Notes under the pieces: model-generated
The model's input: only the letters and a program-made list of their open reading frames with translations
The model's database searches: none
What the model was told of the DNA's origin: nothing
Program-made: the position numbers and the translations under genes
In this document: piece after piece, positions 3,092 through 26,824 of the stretch
Layout: each line of letters starts with the position of its first letter
Numbering within the stretch: position 1 is the first letter of the stretch
Assembly (NCBI GenBank): GCA_904419295.1
Contig: CAJFRA010000002.1
Span: 1-64,000 of the forward strand
Source of the DNA: Candidatus Pseudobutyricicoccus lothianensis
GTDB taxonomy: Bacteria; Bacillota; Clostridia; Oscillospirales; Butyricicoccaceae
Direction: 5' to 3'
DNA length: 64,000 bases

Positions 3092-5500
3092 TCAAGCGGG
3101 TTTTACCACGATATTTACAATGCGGCCTGGGATGACGATGACTTTGACCACCTGCATCCCCTGAAGGGCACCGGCGATCTTGGGCTCTGCCATAGCTTTT
3201 TCGCGAATGGATTCCTGTTCTTCTTCGGCCCCTACCTGAATGGTAGTCTTCACCTTGCCGTTGATCTGCACGGCGATCTCCACCGTGGCGTCTACTGTTT
3301 TGCTCTCCTCATAGGTGGGCCAGGCGGCGTGGACCAACATCTCTTTCCCGCCCATGCGCTCATTCAGCTCTTCGCAGATGTGGGGGGCAAAGGGATCCAG
3401 CAGGGTGATAAACGTCTGGTATTCCGCCCGGTTGACGCCATTGTCGCCAAAGGTGTTCAGCAAACTCATCAACGCAGCGATGGCCGTGTTGAATTTCAGG
3501 TTTTCAATGTCTTCTGTCACCTTTTTGATGGTCTTGTGCATAGCGCCTTCATTCTTGGCGGAATAGGCATCGCCAGGCTGCACTTCGTCATACAGAGCCC
3601 ATACGCGCTCCAAAAACCGGCGGCAGCCCTTCACCGCATTCTGAGACCAGGGTGCAGCCTTCTCAAAGTCGCCCAGGAACATCTCATACAAACGCATGGT
3701 ATCGGCGCCGTAATCCCGCACGATGTCATCGGGGTTGATGACATTGCCCCGGCTCTTGGACATCTTTTCGCCGCCTTCGCCCAAGATCATGCCGTGGCTG
3801 GTGCGCTTGCGGTAGGGCTCCGCCTGGGGCACCACGCCGATGTCATAAAGGAATTTATGCCAGAACCGGGAATAGAGCAGGTGCAGGGTGGTGTGCTCCA
3901 TGCCGCCGTTGTACCAGTCCACCGGCATCCAGTATTCCAGCGCCTCTTTGGAGGCCAGCTCTTTGTCGTTGTGAGGGTCGCAATAGCGCAGGAAATACCA
4001 GCTGGAACCCGCCCACTGGGGCATGGTATCTGTCTCCCGCTTGGCCGGGCCGCCGCAATGGGGGCAAGTGGTGTTGACCCAATCGGTCATTTTGGCCAGC
4101 GGAGATTCGCCATTTTCCGTGGGCTCATAGGATTCCACCTCGGGCAGGCGCAGGGGCAGCTGGTCCTCGGGCACGGGTACCCAACCGCATTTCTCGCAGT
4201 AGACCAGAGGAATGGGTTCCCCCCAATAGCGCTGGCGGGAGAAGACCCAGTCCCGCAGCTTGAAGTTCACCTTCGTTTCCCCTTTTTTGTGCTCTTCCAG
4301 CCATTCGACGATCTTTTTCTTGGCCTCTTCCACCGTCAAGCCATCCAGGAAGCCGGAATTGACCATCACGCCGGTGTCACAATCGGTAAAGGCCTCTTTT
4401 GTCACGTCGCCCCCTTTGACCACCTCGATGATGGGCAGGCCAAATTTGGTGGCGAACTCCCAGTCTCTGGTGTCGTGGGCCGGCACGGCCATGATGGCGC
4501 CAGTGCCATAGGACATGAGCACGTAGTCGGAGACAAAAATGGGGATCTTGGTATCGTTGACCGGGTTGATGCCCCACACGCCATCCAGCCGCACGCCGGT
4601 CTTGTCTTTCACCAGCTCCGTGCGCTCAAAATCCGATTTGCGGGCCGACTGCTGCTGGTATTCCCGCACTTCTGCCAGGTTCGCCAGCTTGTCTGCCCAT
4701 TTGTCGATGTAAGGGTGCTCGGGAGAAATGACCATATAGGTAGCGCCAAACAGGGTGTCAGGCCGGGTGGTATAGATCTTCAGCGTATCCCCCTCTGTGG
4801 TGTCGAACAGCACTTCGGCGCCGGTGCTCCGGCCGATCCAGTTGCGCTGCTGGGTCTTGACCCGGTCGATGTAATCCACCTGATCCAGATCGTCCAGCAG
4901 CCGCTGGGCATATTCGGTGATCTTGAGCATCCATTGGCTTTTTTCCTTGCGGATGACCGGGCTGCCGCACCGCTCGCAAACGCCGTTGACCACTTCTTCG
5001 TTGGCCAGCACGCATTTGCAGGAAGTGCACCAGTTCACCGGCATGGTAGTCTTATAGGCCAGGCCGTGTTTATACAGCTGCAAAAAGATCCACTGGGTCC
5101 ATTTGTAGTAGGAGGGGTCCGTGGTATTCACTTCCCGATCCCAATCGAAGGAAAGGCCCAGGGAGCGCAGCTGGCTTTTGAAGCGGGCGATGTTCTGCCG
5201 GGTGACCTCTTCCGGGTGCACGTGATTTTTGATGGCGTAATTCTCTGTGGGCAGGCCAAAAGCATCCCACCCCATGGGAAACAGCACGTTATACCCCTGC
5301 ATGCGGCGTTTGCGGGCCACGATATCCATGGCGGTGTAGGGCCGGGGATGGCCCACATGGAGCCCTTGCCCCGAAGGATAGGGAAATTCCACCAGGGCGT
5401 AGTATTTGGGCTTGTCGTATTTGTTTTCCGCCCGGAAGGCCTTGGCCTCGTCCCAGGCGTCTTGCCACTTGTGCTCTATGGCCGTGTAGTCGTACTTCAT
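3092..5500 (-). CDS. leuS: Leucyl-tRNA synthetase
   Basis: [13 protein letters not shown] (HIGH-like), KMSKSRGN (KMSKS), editing domain; start [13 protein letters not shown] at 5500. Confidence 0.97.
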
Positions 5501-15053: not shown

Positions 15054-15084
15054 AAAAAGCGCGGTGCAAAATTTGCACCGCGCT
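15054..15084 (-). terminator. Terminator of the Sec-glutaredoxin operon
   Basis: Perfect 13-bp stem AGCGCGGTGCAAA/TTTGCACCGCGCT followed by T-tract on the minus strand. Confidence 0.75.
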
Positions 15085-15103: not shown

Positions 15104-15403
15104 CTACTGCTTTTTTTGCTCTGCATCCAGTCCCAGGTCCGCGATCAGCTTTTCTGCCGCTTCCGGCGATTCGATGACGTAGCTCTCGTCGTCCACGACC
15201 AACGTGGGGATGCCCACGCTGCCGCTGGCACGCGCTTCCGCATGGGAGGCCGCGTGATCCCGGATCTTCAGATACTTTTTCAGCTGGGCCATGCCCGCTG
15301 TGATCTCCACATAACCATACCGGATATTATGCCCTGAAAGAACCTCTTTCACCTGTCCGCAGGGCGCTCACAGGGGGCTGCCGTACAAAATCACCTTTCT
15401 CAT
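15104..15403 (-). CDS. Probable selenoprotein: glutaredoxin-like protein with UxxC motif (copy A)
   Basis: From ATG 15403: MRKVILYGSPL-U-APCGQVKEVLSGHNIRYGYVEITAG...VGIPTLVVDDESYVIE..., in-frame TGA at 15368-15370. The ORF track shows only the part after UGA (15104..15352). Thioredoxin fold with cis-Pro GIP. RBS-like GGAAAGGTGG upstream. Confidence 0.85.
15335..15351 (-). promoter_or_regulatory. Putative bacterial SECIS hairpin, copy A
   Basis: Minus strand TGAAAGA-GGT-TCTTTCA: perfect 7-bp stem with GGU loop, the loop starting 24 nt after the UGA. Confidence 0.75.
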
Positions 15404-15457
15404 GTTTCAGGCCACCTTTCCACTCAAAAATTGGTTTGAACGGTACAAACCGCTCCC

Positions 15458-15751
15458 TTATCCTGCCTCTTCCACTAAGTGCAGTTCTTGGATCAGCTTT
15501 TCTGCGTGTTCCGGCCCCTCTACGATATAGGGTACATCATCCACCACCAAGCAGGGGATGCCCACCCGATGGTTTTCCCGGATGGGGGCGTACGCCTCCG
15601 CCGTATCGCGGATCTTCATAAACTGGCGCAATGGGCCGATGCCCGCCGTGATCTCCACATAGGCATACCGGACATTTTTCTGTGAAAGAACCTCTTTCAC
15701 CGGTGGACACGTTTTTCAATAGGGGCTGCCGTACAATACGATCTTACGCAT
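15458..15751 (-). CDS. Probable selenoprotein: glutaredoxin-like protein with UxxC motif (copy B)
   Basis: From ATG 15751: MRKIVLYGSPY-U-KTCPPVKEVLSQKNVRYAYVEITAG...VGIPCLVVDDVPYIVE..., in-frame TGA at 15716-15718. The ORF track shows only 15458..15700. Confidence 0.85.
15682..15700 (-). promoter_or_regulatory. Putative bacterial SECIS hairpin, copy B
   Basis: Minus strand GTGAAAGA-GGT-TCTTTCAC: perfect 8-bp stem with GGU loop at the same distance from UGA as in copy A. Confidence 0.75.
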
Positions 15752-15805: not shown

Positions 15806-15834
15806 ATTATAGACAAAACCAATCGCTCTGTCAA
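15806..15834 (-). promoter_or_regulatory. Perfect-consensus promoter of the Sec-glutaredoxin operon
   Basis: Minus strand TTGACA (15829-15834) - 17 nt - TATAAT (15806-15811). Confidence 0.85.
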
Positions 15835-18829: not shown

Positions 18830-21800
18830 ATGAAGAAGAAAGTACTCTCGTTGGTACTGTCTGCCTCCATGGTATCCAGCATGCTGCCTGCCATGGCGTA
18901 TGCGGCAGATGGGACCACCACATTCCCGGACATGCCCAACGACTGGTCTACCACAGCGTTGCAGAGCGCCATCGACAATGGCCTGCTCAATGGCATTGAT
19001 GGGAAGATCGCTGCCAGCGAGAACCTGACCCGTGCTCAGATGGCTGCCATCGTCACCCGTGCATTCGGCACCAATGGCAATGCGGACATCTCGGGCTTTG
19101 GCGATGTGAACAGCGGTGACTGGTTCTACAATGCCATGGCAGCTGCGGTGAACATGGGCGCTTTCCAGGGCGACGGCACCGGCCTGAACCCCAACGCCAA
19201 CATCACCCGCCAGGAAGCTTTCACCGTGCTGGCCCGCCTGTTCACCCTGAGCGGCGCTGACCAGAGCGTGCTGAACAGCTTCTCCGACGCTGGCCAGGTG
19301 GCTGATTGGGCCAAAGACTCCATGGCTTCCATGGTGCAGGCCGGCTATGTTTCCGGCGACCGCAATATGCTGAAGCCCACCAGCAGCATCACCCGTGCCG
19401 AGTTTGCCCAGGTGATGTACAACCTGCTTTCCGACTACATGGTAGCCGGTGAAGACGGCACCAATGTGCAGGGCAACGCTATTCTGAACCAGACAGGCAC
19501 TCTGTCCAACGTCACCGTCAGCGGCGACCTGATCGTCGGCGACGGCGCCGGCGAAGGCGACGTCACCCTGAACAACGTGACCGTTTCCGGCCGTCTGCTG
19601 GTCCGCGGCGGCGGTGTCAATACCGTTACTCTGGAAGGCAACACCACAGTTGGCGGCCAGATCGTTGTCAACAAGCCCACAGGCGATGTGCGCGTCCACA
19701 ATTCCACATCCAACGAATTTGACGCTGCTGTCATCTCCGACGGCGCGACCCTGACCGGCGAGTTCGACGTTGTGGAAGTGACCGCTTCCGGCACCACCAC
19801 TGTCACCGGCGCCACTGTGAACACCGTCAATGTTTCCGCTGCTGCCAGCCTGTCTGTCGCCGGCGAGAGCAAGGTGGACACCGTCAACCTGGACGCTGCT
19901 TCTTCCAAGCTGAATGTCAACGGCAACAGCACCGTAACAACGGTCAACGTGCCTGAGTCCGCTTCCAACGCCTCCATTGATGTGGCCAACGGCAGCACTG
20001 TGACCAATGTCAACACAGCGGCCAACGGCGTCAGCATCGATGGCGAAGGCAAAGTTTCCAACGTGAAGGTCGAAGGCAATAACACCTCCGTCGACACCGT
20101 TGGCACAAAAGTAACTGTGGCTTCCGGCGTTACCGGCACCACCTCCAATGGCAAAGACATCGCGGCCGGCACTACGGTCACCACCACTGCCAATGGCACA
20201 ACAGGCGGCGGTTCCACCGGCGGCTCTAGTGATACGGGCGACAACGGTGAGACTCCTGTTGTTGATAAAGCGTATAAAGTTTCTATCGGCACCTTTGTGG
20301 GTGGCAAGGTAACTGCTGACATCACAGAAACGGATGAAGCCAACCAAACCATTACTCTGACGGTTACGCCCGATGCGCAAAATGGCGAGACTATGCCTTA
20401 TGTGCTGAAAGCTGAAAGCTTGAAGGTCACACTCGGTACTGGTGAGGAAGCTACTGATGTTGAAGTAACTCCCGGTGACAACAACACCTATACCTTCACC
20501 ATGGATACTGAAGGCACATATACGGTAACAGCTGAATTCGTCCAGCCTATCACAAAAGCGGAAGTTTTTGTGATTGATAATGTTGAATCCTTGAAATCCC
20601 TGGTTACAAAAGGGTATGTCGCTGACGAAGAAGAGTTGAAGAACAACTTTGCTGATCCCAATGGAGGAACAGTTAATGGTGAATTGCAGGCCAATCCTTG
20701 GTTAGCTTTCGGCATCCTTCGTAATACTGATTTTTCCACTGCCAAAATTGAGAAGTTGGATGTAAAGCAAAACGGTGTCTCTGTTACGAATAATAGTCAT
20801 CACTTCCCAAGCTTGAGTGGCAAAGCCGCTTCTGCTATGCTGAAGGGGGCCCGCCCAGAGTTCCAAGACAAGGATTATCTTGGCTTTACACATGACTACG
20901 GTACCTATGACGTGACCTTCACTTGTGAAGGCGCTGAGTATTCCTTTACTACCGACTACTATCCGGAAGGTGAAGGCATCACCTATAATACGGTCACCTT
21001 CGTCGTAGATGGTGAAACCTATAAGACCTATAAAGGGCAAGCTACAGATACCATCACCGCACCGGAAGCCCCTGCCAAGATTGGTTATACTTTTGATGAC
21101 TGGTATGATGCTGACGGGAATGAGATGGCAGTCGATGCAAAATACGATGCCGACAAGACTTATACTGCCAAATACAATGTCAATCAGTATACGATTGCGT
21201 TTGATCCCAATGATGGTACGGGTGAAATGGCCTCGATCGAAAATGTCAAGTATGATGCAGATACCACATTGACAAAGAATACTTTTACAAGAGACGGCTA
21301 CACCTTTGCCGGTTGGAATACCCAGGCAGATGGTCAGGGCACAGCTTATGCTGATGAAGCCACTGTAAAGAACCTGACTTCTGAGAATAACGCAACAGTC
21401 ACTTTGTATGCTCAGTGGACAGCACAGACTTCAGAAGTGTCCACTACTGAAGAGTTTGATACGGCTTTGAAAGCAAATATTCCTCAAATTCTTGTCAAGG
21501 GCAACGAAGTTGTTGTTTCTTCTGAAGTGACGATTCCCGAAGGCACAACTGTTACAGTAGACAAGGATGCTGTTTTGAGTGTAGGTGCTCAGACACGGGC
21601 TGAAGCAAAACTCAATGTGGCTGGTACATTAAATATTGCCGAAGGCGGTAAAGTCGCTGTAAACAGTGGCTCTGTTGAAGTAACTGACTCTGGTTCTGTT
21701 GCAGTTACTGGCACTGTTACCATCGCTGCCAATGCTACATTGACTGCACCAGATGCCGCTGTAGAACTGAAAGCAGGCGCTGTCCTGACAAATGACGGTA

Positions 21801-22771
21801 CTGTAACTGGTGCTGTAGAGGCTGATGAAAAAGCTACTATTGATGGTGCTAATGCTAAGCAAGTTTCCAAAGTCGAGGCTTCTGCTGCTACATTTGCCCC
21901 AATGATTCAAGCCATTTATGACGCTGGTTATGTAGTTGTCCCTGGTGGTGCTTGGGAAGGCAAACCTGAAAAGATTGAACAATTCGGCTCATTAACTTAT
22001 GCTGCTCCTGATACAGAAGGTAAGGTTGTTGTAACGGGTACCGCCAATAAAGTGGTAGGCTTTACTGGTTTCAATAAAACAGAGGAAGCTGAGCAAAGCG
22101 GTTATTATGCTGTATTCCAGGTAGAAGCTCCTGAAGATGTTGCTACAGGCACCTCCACTGTTATCGGTCACATTGGCGACAAAGAGATCACAGTTGCCAA
22201 TATGGATAAAGACGGTGAGAAATCTTACCTGAACTGCATCATCTGGCTGGCTGATAAGAATGCCACCGAAGTTACAAAGACCACGATCCTCAAGATCGAT
22301 TGGGATGGCGCAGACGCTGGCAAATATACAGAGTCTACTTACACTCTGGATTTCAGCGGCGTAGAGTTGGATTCCTCTGTAGTAGCCCCTAAAAACGCAA
22401 CTGCGTTGAAAAGTGAGGAATTTAACGGCTTCCCCCAAGACGGTTATAAGGATTATTTGCTAAAAGTTGAGGACGAAGACTTTCCGTTGGTTTCCGACAC
22501 AATCCTCTTTACTGGTAAATTGGGTGAAGATGGAAAGGTAGTTAATCTTTCTGAAATCGTAGAGCATGTTGATGGTAATTGTCCTGTTTGCGACAAACAT
22601 GAGGTAGGCAAAACCTGTATGTTGTCTCAATCAACAATTGATGAGAAGGATGACGACAACGAGAAGAAGCACAATGTTGCTTGGACTCTGTCTGATGAAA
22701 CAACAGCAGGCACTTGGTACTTCTGGACCGCTGACGGTGTGTATTCCTTCACACTTCCTGTCTCTGAATAA
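18830..22771 (+). CDS. S-layer homology (SLH) domain surface protein with InlB-B/Listeria-type repeats
   Basis: Signal peptide, SLH repeats (TRAQMAAIVTRAFG, TRQEAFTVLARLF, TRAEFAQVMYNLL), beta-helix-like region, repeats of the type YTFAGWNTQADGQGTAY. Confidence 0.92.
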   Translation: MKKKVLSLVLSASMVSSMLPAMAYAADGTTTFPDMPNDWSTTALQSAIDNGLLNGIDGKIAASENLTRAQMAAIVTRAFGTNGNADISGFGDVNSGDWFYNAMAAAVNMGAFQGDGTGLNPNANITRQEAFTVLARLFTLSGADQSVLNSFSDAGQVADWAKDSMASMVQAGYVSGDRNMLKPTSSITRAEFAQVMYNLLSDYMVAGEDGTNVQGNAILNQTGTLSNVTVSGDLIVGDGAGEGDVTLNNVTVSGRLLVRGGGVNTVTLEGNTTVGGQIVVNKPTGDVRVHNSTSNEFDAAVISDGATLTGEFDVVEVTASGTTTVTGATVNTVNVSAAASLSVAGESKVDTVNLDAASSKLNVNGNSTVTTVNVPESASNASIDVANGSTVTNVNTAANGVSIDGEGKVSNVKVEGNNTSVDTVGTKVTVASGVTGTTSNGKDIAAGTTVTTTANGTTGGGSTGGSSDTGDNGETPVVDKAYKVSIGTFVGGKVTADITETDEANQTITLTVTPDAQNGETMPYVLKAESLKVTLGTGEEATDVEVTPGDNNTYTFTMDTEGTYTVTAEFVQPITKAEVFVIDNVESLKSLVTKGYVADEEELKNNFADPNGGTVNGELQANPWLAFGILRNTDFSTAKIEKLDVKQNGVSVTNNSHHFPSLSGKAASAMLKGARPEFQDKDYLGFTHDYGTYDVTFTCEGAEYSFTTDYYPEGEGITYNTVTFVVDGETYKTYKGQATDTITAPEAPAKIGYTFDDWYDADGNEMAVDAKYDADKTYTAKYNVNQYTIAFDPNDGTGEMASIENVKYDADTTLTKNTFTRDGYTFAGWNTQADGQGTAYADEATVKNLTSENNATVTLYAQWTAQTSEVSTTEEFDTALKANIPQILVKGNEVVVSSEVTIPEGTTVTVDKDAVLSVGAQTRAEAKLNVAGTLNIAEGGKVAVNSGSVEVTDSGSVAVTGTVTIAANATLTAPDAAVELKAGAVLTNDGTVTGAVEADEKATIDGANAKQVSKVEASAATFAPMIQAIYDAGYVVVPGGAWEGKPEKIEQFGSLTYAAPDTEGKVVVTGTANKVVGFTGFNKTEEAEQSGYYAVFQVEAPEDVATGTSTVIGHIGDKEITVANMDKDGEKSYLNCIIWLADKNATEVTKTTILKIDWDGADAGKYTESTYTLDFSGVELDSSVVAPKNATALKSEEFNGFPQDGYKDYLLKVEDEDFPLVSDTILFTGKLGEDGKVVNLSEIVEHVDGNCPVCDKHEVGKTCMLSQSTIDEKDDDNEKKHNVAWTLSDETTAGTWYFWTADGVYSFTLPVSE

Positions 22772-22835: not shown

Positions 22836-22990
22836 TATTTTCTCCAAATCTATTTATTCACTCTTCACCAAATTAAGATTTTTTCACCAATTTCATTTCC
22901 TTTTATTCTCTTTTCTGGTATATTTATACTATACATTTGGCAATCATGGAGAACCATACCCACCATTTTGTGAAGAAAGAAGGGATTTGT

Positions 22991-25273
22991 GTGAAAAAGA
23001 GATGTATTCTCCTGATTGTCGCAGCACTCCTTTGCTCTTTCCCCTGTCTGGGGTTGGAAGATGCCGATGCCCCCATTACCCGCGGTGAGGCTGCCGCTTG
23101 GTTTGTGGAGCACTTGGGCATTGAATCCCCCGGCGACCTTTCTGCCTATTTTGATGTGCCAGAAGACGCCTGGTATTCCGATGCCCTATCCCACGCGGTA
23201 GGCGCCGGGTTGTTCCAGGGCTACCAGGGTTCTTTGCGGCCCGATGCACCCCTGGAACAGCGGGAACTGGACCTGGTGTTTTCCCGCTTATCCCATGCTC
23301 CGGTGTCCTCCTATGGCACACAGCTCGTCAGCCACCAGTCTTTTGAGCAGCAGGTTTCCGACCGCTTCGGCAGCTCGGTTGCTTCTGGCCAGACAGGCGT
23401 GGTCCAAGGCAGTGCCACCATCTGCTCTCCCATGTCCCTCGACGGCCTGTTTGTCAGAGGCGATCTTTGGATCGGTGACAGCGCCGGCGATGTCCAGCTG
23501 AACGATGTGCAGGTGGGCGGACGCCTGATCCTGCGGGGCAGCGGCGCTGTGGAGCTTTCCGGCCTGACAGGGGCCAACTCCGTGACCGTGTTGGGGCCGG
23601 CCACCTTGGTCAGCCATACCGCAGCCCGTCCCTCCTGTTTGTTTGATACGCCTCATGCCACCGTGCAGGGTTCATTCCTTTCCATCCTTGTGGAATCCTC
23701 CGGCACCCTCTCTCTGGAGTCTGCCGATGTGGATTCCATTTTTGTTTCCGCTGACCACGAGGTACTGCTGCTGGATGAAAGATCCAAAGTGGGACAGATC
23801 ACGCTGCAAGGCGACCATGGGGTGCTGGCCGGTTCCGGCTGGGTAGATCAAGTGATCGCCGGCGGGCAAAACATCCACATCGAAGCAGACGGCGGCACCG
23901 TCTTCGCGCTGGAAGGCAGCGGCGGCGTGCGGGCGCAAGGCACTTTGATCCCCGCCGGCACCTACGCGGTGGGCGACGCCAAGCCAGATACGCCTGTCAC
24001 CACTGCGCCAAAGCCCTCGTGGAGCGGCGGTTCCAGCGGCAGCTCCGGCGGTTCCTCCAAGCCACCGCAGCCCGATGACACAGATCCCGACCCGATTCCT
24101 GACCCTGACCCCGAGCCCGACACCCCCCAGCCCCCTGCTGCCGATTCCGTTGCTCTTTGGTCCGCAGGCGGCGCCGCGCAGCTGACCATCCAGGCACAGG
24201 ACGATGTGTTATCCATCCAGGCTTCCGCCACTTTGGAGCCTGGTTATCCCTCGCCCGACATCGCCGCCCTGTACCAAAACCGCCAGACCGATGTTCCCTT
24301 TGCCACAGTGGGTCTGTCCTTCGCCTTGCCCCAGCTCCCCTCCGATGGCCAGACCATCCTGCGGCTGGAAAGCCAGGCCCTGGCCGCCTTGGGCTACACC
24401 AGCGAAGACAACACGGCCCAGTGCCAATACACCGCCAAAGGGGACCAAGTGGAAGCTGTGGTGACGCTGGCCAACCAGGACCTGTTGGCGCGGGGTGCTT
24501 TGGAGCTGCCTCTGCCGTTCCTCCAGGGCGAAGAGCCGGTCTCCCTCTCCATTGATTGGGGCCAGGGGCCCCAGCGCTATGCCGTGGATGTGAGCGGTGT
24601 TTCCTTTGTCATTTCCCAGCTGGGCGAACCGGTCATCACCCTTCCCAGCCAGCAGGAAGAGACAGAAAACCAAGGCTTGCTGACTGTGGATTGGGAAGGC
24701 GCTGCCACTTTGTCCCTCTATGACGGACAAGATCAGCTGCTTTGGGAGCAGCAGGGCCCGGCTTTGCAATGGAACCTGTTGGATGCGCAGGGTGCGTATC
24801 CCCAGCCGGGCACAGAGATCTCCATCCAGGCCGTGGACAGCGGCGGACACCAAGATTCCCGGCAGATCACCTTGACATCTGCCGACCTGCTGGCTGCCAT
24901 CCCCCGGCAGGATGGATTCTTTGTAAATGCCCCATACCCGGATTGGCTGGGCGAAGAAGGGGAAGAGATCTATACGGTTTTGAACGGCCTCTTTGAGGAT
25001 GAGACTTTGACCTGTGACGCCAACATCCTGCGGGTGGACGCCGGTGGCTTCTCCCCAGAATTGGCCCAATGGTGCCAGCAGACCTTTGGCCGCCCCTGCG
25101 TACCTGTACAGGTGATGTCTTCCCTCGCCTCTTCAGAGGAGATCCCCATAGACCCAGATTGGGGCGTCCCACTCATCTGGCTGTCTCTGGATGGAAGCGG
25201 CCCCGCTTTGCAGGCGTACCGTTTTACAGACGGTTCCGATGTCTTCTCCTTCTATGTCCTGTATGAATCGTAA
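22991..25273 (+). CDS. SLH-domain surface protein, paralogous beta-helix-like region with Asp/Pro-rich linker
   Basis: Likely GTG start (VKKRCILLIVAALLCSFPCLG signal peptide). TRGEAAAWFVEHLGIE SLH. GDLWIGDSAGDVQLNDVQVGGRLILRG resembles GDLIVGDGAGEGDVTLNNVTVSGRLLVRG of SLH protein 1. Confidence 0.8.
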   Translation: MKKRCILLIVAALLCSFPCLGLEDADAPITRGEAAAWFVEHLGIESPGDLSAYFDVPEDAWYSDALSHAVGAGLFQGYQGSLRPDAPLEQRELDLVFSRLSHAPVSSYGTQLVSHQSFEQQVSDRFGSSVASGQTGVVQGSATICSPMSLDGLFVRGDLWIGDSAGDVQLNDVQVGGRLILRGSGAVELSGLTGANSVTVLGPATLVSHTAARPSCLFDTPHATVQGSFLSILVESSGTLSLESADVDSIFVSADHEVLLLDERSKVGQITLQGDHGVLAGSGWVDQVIAGGQNIHIEADGGTVFALEGSGGVRAQGTLIPAGTYAVGDAKPDTPVTTAPKPSWSGGSSGSSGGSSKPPQPDDTDPDPIPDPDPEPDTPQPPAADSVALWSAGGAAQLTIQAQDDVLSIQASATLEPGYPSPDIAALYQNRQTDVPFATVGLSFALPQLPSDGQTILRLESQALAALGYTSEDNTAQCQYTAKGDQVEAVVTLANQDLLARGALELPLPFLQGEEPVSLSIDWGQGPQRYAVDVSGVSFVISQLGEPVITLPSQQEETENQGLLTVDWEGAATLSLYDGQDQLLWEQQGPALQWNLLDAQGAYPQPGTEISIQAVDSGGHQDSRQITLTSADLLAAIPRQDGFFVNAPYPDWLGEEGEEIYTVLNGLFEDETLTCDANILRVDAGGFSPELAQWCQQTFGRPCVPVQVMSSLASSEEIPIDPDWGVPLIWLSLDGSGPALQAYRFTDGSDVFSFYVLYES

Positions 25274-26720: not shown

Positions 26721-26824
26721 TGACAGAGTAGGCGGATATGGGTCAAGTGCCGAAGGGACGGGGAGTTGCCCTTTGGACGAAAAGCCGGACAGGCTTGCCG
26801 TAGATTCGCCGCATCCCGCTGTCA
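26721..26824 (+). promoter_or_regulatory. THF (tetrahydrofolate) riboswitch aptamer
   Basis: Closing stem TGACAG/CTGTCA encloses the THF core blocks GAGTAGG...GTCAAGTG...GGGACGGGGAGTT...GGACGAAAAGCC...GCCGCATCCCGCT; lies directly upstream of a FolT-type gene. Confidence 0.9.

Follow-up and report, generated by a model that had tools for sequence, protein, structure and literature searches.

A tandem pair of probable UxxC selenoproteins of the glutaredoxin fold in Candidatus Pseudobutyricicoccus lothianensis

Glutaredoxins that contain selenocysteine (Sec) were tabulated in 2006, two of them in Alkaliphilus metalliredigens (PMC1794560), and in 2026 the Sec-glutaredoxin is listed as an established family (PMC13188914). 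Examples of this kind (PF00462, UxxC) include proteins of Geobacter sulfurreducens, A. metalliredigens, and Moorella, and Grx1 of C. oremlandii (cGrx1; PDB 7c10). We analyzed a 64,000-nucleotide stretch of the Candidatus Pseudobutyricicoccus lothianensis genome (hereafter, the window), in which two adjacent genes, B and A, very probably form a small operon for two Sec-containing UxxC oxidoreductases of the glutaredoxin fold, with UGA decoded by means of a SECIS hairpin.

Copies B and A share with the described Sec-glutaredoxins the glutaredoxin fold, Sec as the first residue of UxxC, small size as stand-alone proteins, and an anaerobic host. However, sequence similarity to cGrx1 is weak (E 0.02), and B comprises 97 aa as compared to 84 aa for cGrx1. 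The family of B and A also has an R-D that is conserved following helix 2, and it has G-[ILV]-P where classical glutaredoxins have T-V-P. The NCBIfam UXX-star families (NF041114, NF041211, NF041212) likewise have a small glutaredoxin-like domain with an N-terminal active-site Sec, but the family of B and A has UxxC with a resolving Cys, and the two copies score 18.6 and 20.5 bits against Uxx_star NF041212, for which the cut-off is 66 bits. The best specific model for both copies is GlrX_YruB (TIGR02196), which gives a match in 19 of 19 family members scanned and which scores the two copies at 32.5 and 36.1 bits, below its cut-off of 88.55; no specific NCBIfam model comes near its cut-off with either copy. 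Clear homologs are the Cys-type proteins of this family, mostly CxDC, which probably correspond to COG4545. They are similar in length and share R48-D49 and G-[ILV]-P; they differ in having Cys at position 12, in having no SECIS, and in occurring mostly in genomes without tRNA-Sec. We conclude that B and A belong to a known kind, Sec-glutaredoxin, within a broader, poorly catalogued group of Sec-containing glutaredoxin-like proteins, and that what is new is modest: a subfamily without a specific NCBIfam model, an operon of two Sec genes, and the repeated occurrence of Sec/Cys tandems elsewhere.

Copy B (15458..15751, minus strand) begins with ATG at 15751, has its UGA at 15718-15716 (Sec codon 15716..15718, codon 12, aligned to the catalytic Cys of Cys homologs), and ends with TAA at 15460-15458, encoding a 97-aa UKTC protein, MRKIVLYGSPYUKTCPPVKEVLSQ...VGIPCLVVDD.... 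Copy A (15104..15403, minus strand), directly downstream of B, begins with ATG at 15403, has its UGA at 15370-15368 (15368..15370, codon 12), and ends with TAG at 15106-15104, encoding a 99-aa UAPC protein. On re-reading of the sequence, the peptide and coordinates that the initial annotation had given for B are exact, as is its placement of UGA at the identical codon in both copies; its description of the paralogs as diverged in most positions is overstated, the aligned proteins being 57% identical. A putative promoter, TTGACA-17 nt-TATAAT (15806..15834, minus strand), matches consensus at 12 of 12 positions and is located 54 nt before the ATG of B. The 54-nt gap between B and A (15404..15457, minus strand) contains a weak 6-bp hairpin followed by a T-run (15451-15433), a possible attenuator, and A is followed by a strong 12-bp G+C-rich terminator-like hairpin (15058..15084, minus strand), scored by the scan on the plus strand, with a T-run following on the minus strand too. 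The arrangement of promoter, B, A, and terminator in the sequence suggests that the two genes would be carried on one transcript.

In both copies a hairpin lies at the position expected for a bacterial SECIS element. The bSECIS model specifies a loop of 3-9 nt, a stem of 4-16 bp, G in the first two loop positions, and a distance of 16-37 nt from UGA (PMC13188914). The hairpin of B, GUGAAAGA-GGU-UCUUUCAC (15682..15700, minus strand), has an 8-bp stem and the hairpin of A, UGAAAGA-GGU-UCUUUCA (15335..15351, minus strand), at the same place as in B, has a 7-bp stem; both have the loop GGU, with the loop starting 23 nt after UGA, in agreement with the model. Such a hairpin alone is not rare, as 5% of the window's TGA triplets have a stem of at least 7 bp in a legal place. 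When the 42 nt of each copy are folded as single sequences, the signal is not significant (z -0.6 and -1.2); the SECIS call therefore rests on comparison across relatives. In 27 UGA-containing members, aligned without gaps, the six loop-proximal pairs are always formed, pairs 21-35 (GC/CG/GU/AU) and 26-30 (AU/CG) covary, and a bulged U20 improves the fit of the lower stem in many members. None of 500 shuffles and none of the slid controls reached the covariation score. We also built a covariance model from 25 relatives, with the window rows excluded; it ranks B (49.9 bits, E 8.4e-13) and A (37.7 bits, E 3.3e-9) as the top two matches in the window, the next match scoring 17.6 bits. The third match in the window, at 4954-4987, is in a frame full of stops and was taken as chance. 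The results show that the hairpin is conserved among UGA-containing relatives. Left free, the 42 nt of A favour a structure other than the SECIS hairpin, although we infer that this competing fold would need nucleotides covered by the ribosome at UGA.

The comparison of the two copies bears on whether both are maintained as selenoproteins. In the protein tree, B groups with G053, a single-copy congener, but a tree that unites A with B in a single clade is not rejected (p-AU 0.47). Outside the SECIS, identical residues are encoded by the same codon at 34 of 46 positions for A vs. B and at 19 of 47 positions for B vs. G053, and dS is 0.81 for A vs. B and 2.5 for B vs. G053. The codons and dS favour an origin of the pair by recent duplication, or by gene conversion. 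The dN/dS comparison proposed in the initial annotation gives about 0.45 for A vs. B and about 0.12 for B vs. G053, and, when split by branch, pN of about 0.20 and pS of about 0.20 for A as compared to pN of 0.09 and pS of 0.29 for B, values that are rough, with synonymous change near saturation. Protein change in A is thus about twice that in B, and A may therefore be relaxed or diverging. A serious possibility, if on balance a doubtful one, is that B is the working selenoprotein and that A, recently duplicated, is under relaxed selection and is drifting or heading to loss or to a new function. The near-equality of pN and pS in A, the pattern of codon sharing, which appears to place the duplication after the separation from one-copy G053, the p-AU value, and the shorter, lower-scoring SECIS stem of A are all consistent with this possibility. 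However, A has no frame damage, keeps U12, C15, R48, D49, G64, and P66, and is identical to B at codons 18-23, which lie over the hairpin, and the branch values are not only rough but rely on one sister genome for comparison. The inference in the initial annotation that retention of UGA in both copies reflects selection for Sec holds for selenocysteine itself, in all comparative tests run, with selection on A being weaker or different.

The initial annotation had further called a tandem UxxC pair unusual. The search of related genomes recovered both Cys-containing versions and tandem pairs of Sec with Cys, so that tandems are less unusual than claimed; among the family loci found, a Sec-Sec tandem occurs in the window only. 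Two genomes, G214 and G822, contain tandem pairs with Cys first and Sec second (G214:C3:78199-78881; G822:C66:9358-9996), and in a third, G057, Sec adjoins a Cys copy on two contigs. The Cys copies of G214 and G822 group with Sec genes of their own genus, and their hairpin is broken or lost: the covariance model gives the G214 Cys copy 11 bits, whereas it gives the adjacent Sec copy, a member of the training set, 72 bits. These Cys copies are likely products of Sec-to-Cys reversal after duplication. Sec/Sec and Sec/Cys tandems in one clade provide natural experiments both on keeping vs. dropping selenium at a catalytic site and on the constraint that a SECIS places on its host protein. We tentatively put forward, as a conjecture rather more likely to fail than to hold, that these genes form a separate subfamily, as yet uncatalogued, of glutaredoxin-like selenoproteins with UxxC, present in several classes of the phylum and repeatedly duplicated in tandem, in which one copy may turn to Cys (G214, G822) or stay Sec (window), giving a selenol/thiol pair with divided substrates, and in which the strongly conserved VKExLS peptide is set largely by the SECIS and not by protein function.

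Homologs were collected by a read-through search of 87 genomes of the window's family, then of wider samples of the order and phylum, with small follow-ups. The 87 family genomes yielded 24 matches in 18 genomes, any internal stop being a single TGA, and the wider samples yielded further UGA forms, some in other classes, together with Cys forms. The total is 33 UGA loci in 31 genomes, including the two of the window, distributed over the window's family, its order, and other classes of the phylum. Apart from the window, matches at 31 loci of 30 genomes contain an in-frame TGA, so that the UGA is more than chance. In 32 of 32 UGA loci read (one, G820, was left out), TGA is at the codon-12 column, with no TAA or TAG there, and in homologs lacking UGA the residue at this position is Cys. 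C15 (the resolving Cys), R48, G64, and P66 do not vary in a 35-row alignment. The relative G747 carries a TAG close to its C-terminus. We conclude that position 12 is a UGA/Cys column across the family.

The mechanical list of open reading frames has both genes begin at GTG past the UGA (15700 in B, 15352 in A), giving 80-82 aa, and a reading in which UGA is a true stop and these shorter proteins are the real products would be in accord with exactly those ORFs. This reading is very improbable: the codons ahead of UGA and the catalytic position are conserved among homologs, Cys homologs are full-length, the GTG at 15700 sits within the SECIS stem of B, and a GTG start would delete beta-strand 1 (residues 4-8) and the active site (residues 12-15) of the predicted fold of B. 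Homologs that start at the downstream GTG and lack the UxxC/CxxC segment, which the initial annotation had named as the observation that would count against it, were not seen; all have UxxC or CxxC except four distant relatives with CxDT (G266, G152, G192, and G424) and one copy truncated at the end of its contig (L029). Standard ORF calling thus shortens both genes to proteins without an active site, and the family is therefore likely to be mis-annotated wherever it is present.

Having concluded that the UGA codons are very probably read as Sec, we consider the proteins that would result. Both copies pass the curated cut-off of PF00462 (33.5 and 33.6 bits vs. 22.9). The AlphaFold2 model of B (pLDDT 93.8) shows a thioredoxin-like fold with residue 12 just ahead of helix 1 and with the conserved Pro, the invariant P66; the closest PDB folds are mostly glutaredoxins, cGrx1 and the thioredoxin-like protein BC3987 being among them. 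Classical Grx1 and Grx3 bind glutathione through TVP and GG-x-DD motifs. These motifs are absent in the family alignment, which has G-[ILV]-P and no GG motif, the model for classical glutathione-dependent glutaredoxin gives 16.8 bits vs. a cut-off of 90 (TIGR02181), and GshF, the one route to glutathione searched for, was not found in the organism's own genome. Because the family is without the classical glutathione motif and no GshF was found, thioredoxin reductase, which is present in the genome, is a possible electron donor. According to our proposal, the paralogs B and A would act, probably in the cytosol, as thiol-disulfide oxidoreductases with a glutaredoxin fold, and one operon would encode both; the SECIS hairpin 23 nt downstream would recruit SelB and Sec-tRNA, such that UGA at codon 12 would be read as Sec; Sec would be the attacking residue of UxxC, its reduced selenolate attacking a substrate in the oxidised state; the Se-S bond would be resolved by Cys15; and the protein would then be regenerated by a reductase, possibly thioredoxin reductase. 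We infer B to be a selenol-thiol reductase of the UxxC type, for which thioredoxin reductase may supply the electrons.

As to substrate, a functional link between Sec-glutaredoxin and Sec-MsrA is described for C. oremlandii (Kim et al., 2011, as cited in PMC13188914), and in one UGA-form genome, G486, an MsrA-like ORF (GGCFW, by reading) lies near the Sec gene, both of which would fit a job for the pair in reducing methionine sulfoxide reductase. However, a search of the window's genome for MsrA (PF01625) found none, about 1% of that genome being missing from the assembly, and neighbours of family members are otherwise unrelated. A role as Msr partner is highly unlikely here, and MsrA was rejected as substrate, its absence largely refuting the idea for this organism.

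The window's own genome contains tRNA-Sec above the family cut-off and SelB above cut-off, as judged with curated models, and, in the same cluster, a SelA-like ORF and a YedE-like transporter, each named by reading of ORFs, together with a thioredoxin reductase. Across genomes, tRNA-Sec is above cut-off in 13 of 16 UGA-form genomes vs. 2 of 16 in which the Cys form alone occurs (one-sided Fisher test, p about 1e-4). Three UGA-form genomes have no tRNA-Sec match: two of the assemblies are 83% and 88% complete, and the third, G062, is 98% complete and yet has the UGA form with an intact hairpin (G062:C65; L020, L052). The absence in G062, which counts against the Sec reading, may reflect either a gap in the assembly or Sec decoding that was lost recently. 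Taken alone, an in-frame UGA would also fit its being read as another amino acid, as by a reassigned code (e.g., Trp), or its leaky suppression, but this is almost certainly wrong, as every homolog lacking UGA has Cys and not Trp at this position, close homologs (L011, L012) use UGA to end their genes, and a SECIS and Sec machinery are present. The selenium cluster (L057; G000:C2:138000-150000) comprises tRNA-Sec, SelA- and SelB-like ORFs, the YedE-like transporter, a glycine riboswitch, and a GrdB-like ORF, named by reading, adjoined by Rfam SECIS_4; its content suggests glycine-reductase-type metabolism.

The search for a conserved gene neighbourhood around family members found none, the only synteny being SMC-FtsY with the one congener: SMC lies downstream of the B-A unit, and in the congener the one glutaredoxin copy is in the same position before SMC. 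An M20 peptidase near some members was rejected as a functional clue, identity being only about 25%. Elsewhere in the window, a THF riboswitch (26722-26823, plus strand; 88.6 bits) is the sole Rfam family over threshold, and two large adjacent ORFs (18830-22771 and 22937-25273, plus strand) have, by reading, similar SLH-like N-terminal parts. The first of these (18830-22771, plus strand) shares 63% identity across 422 aa with an ORF that adjoins the single glutaredoxin gene of G053.
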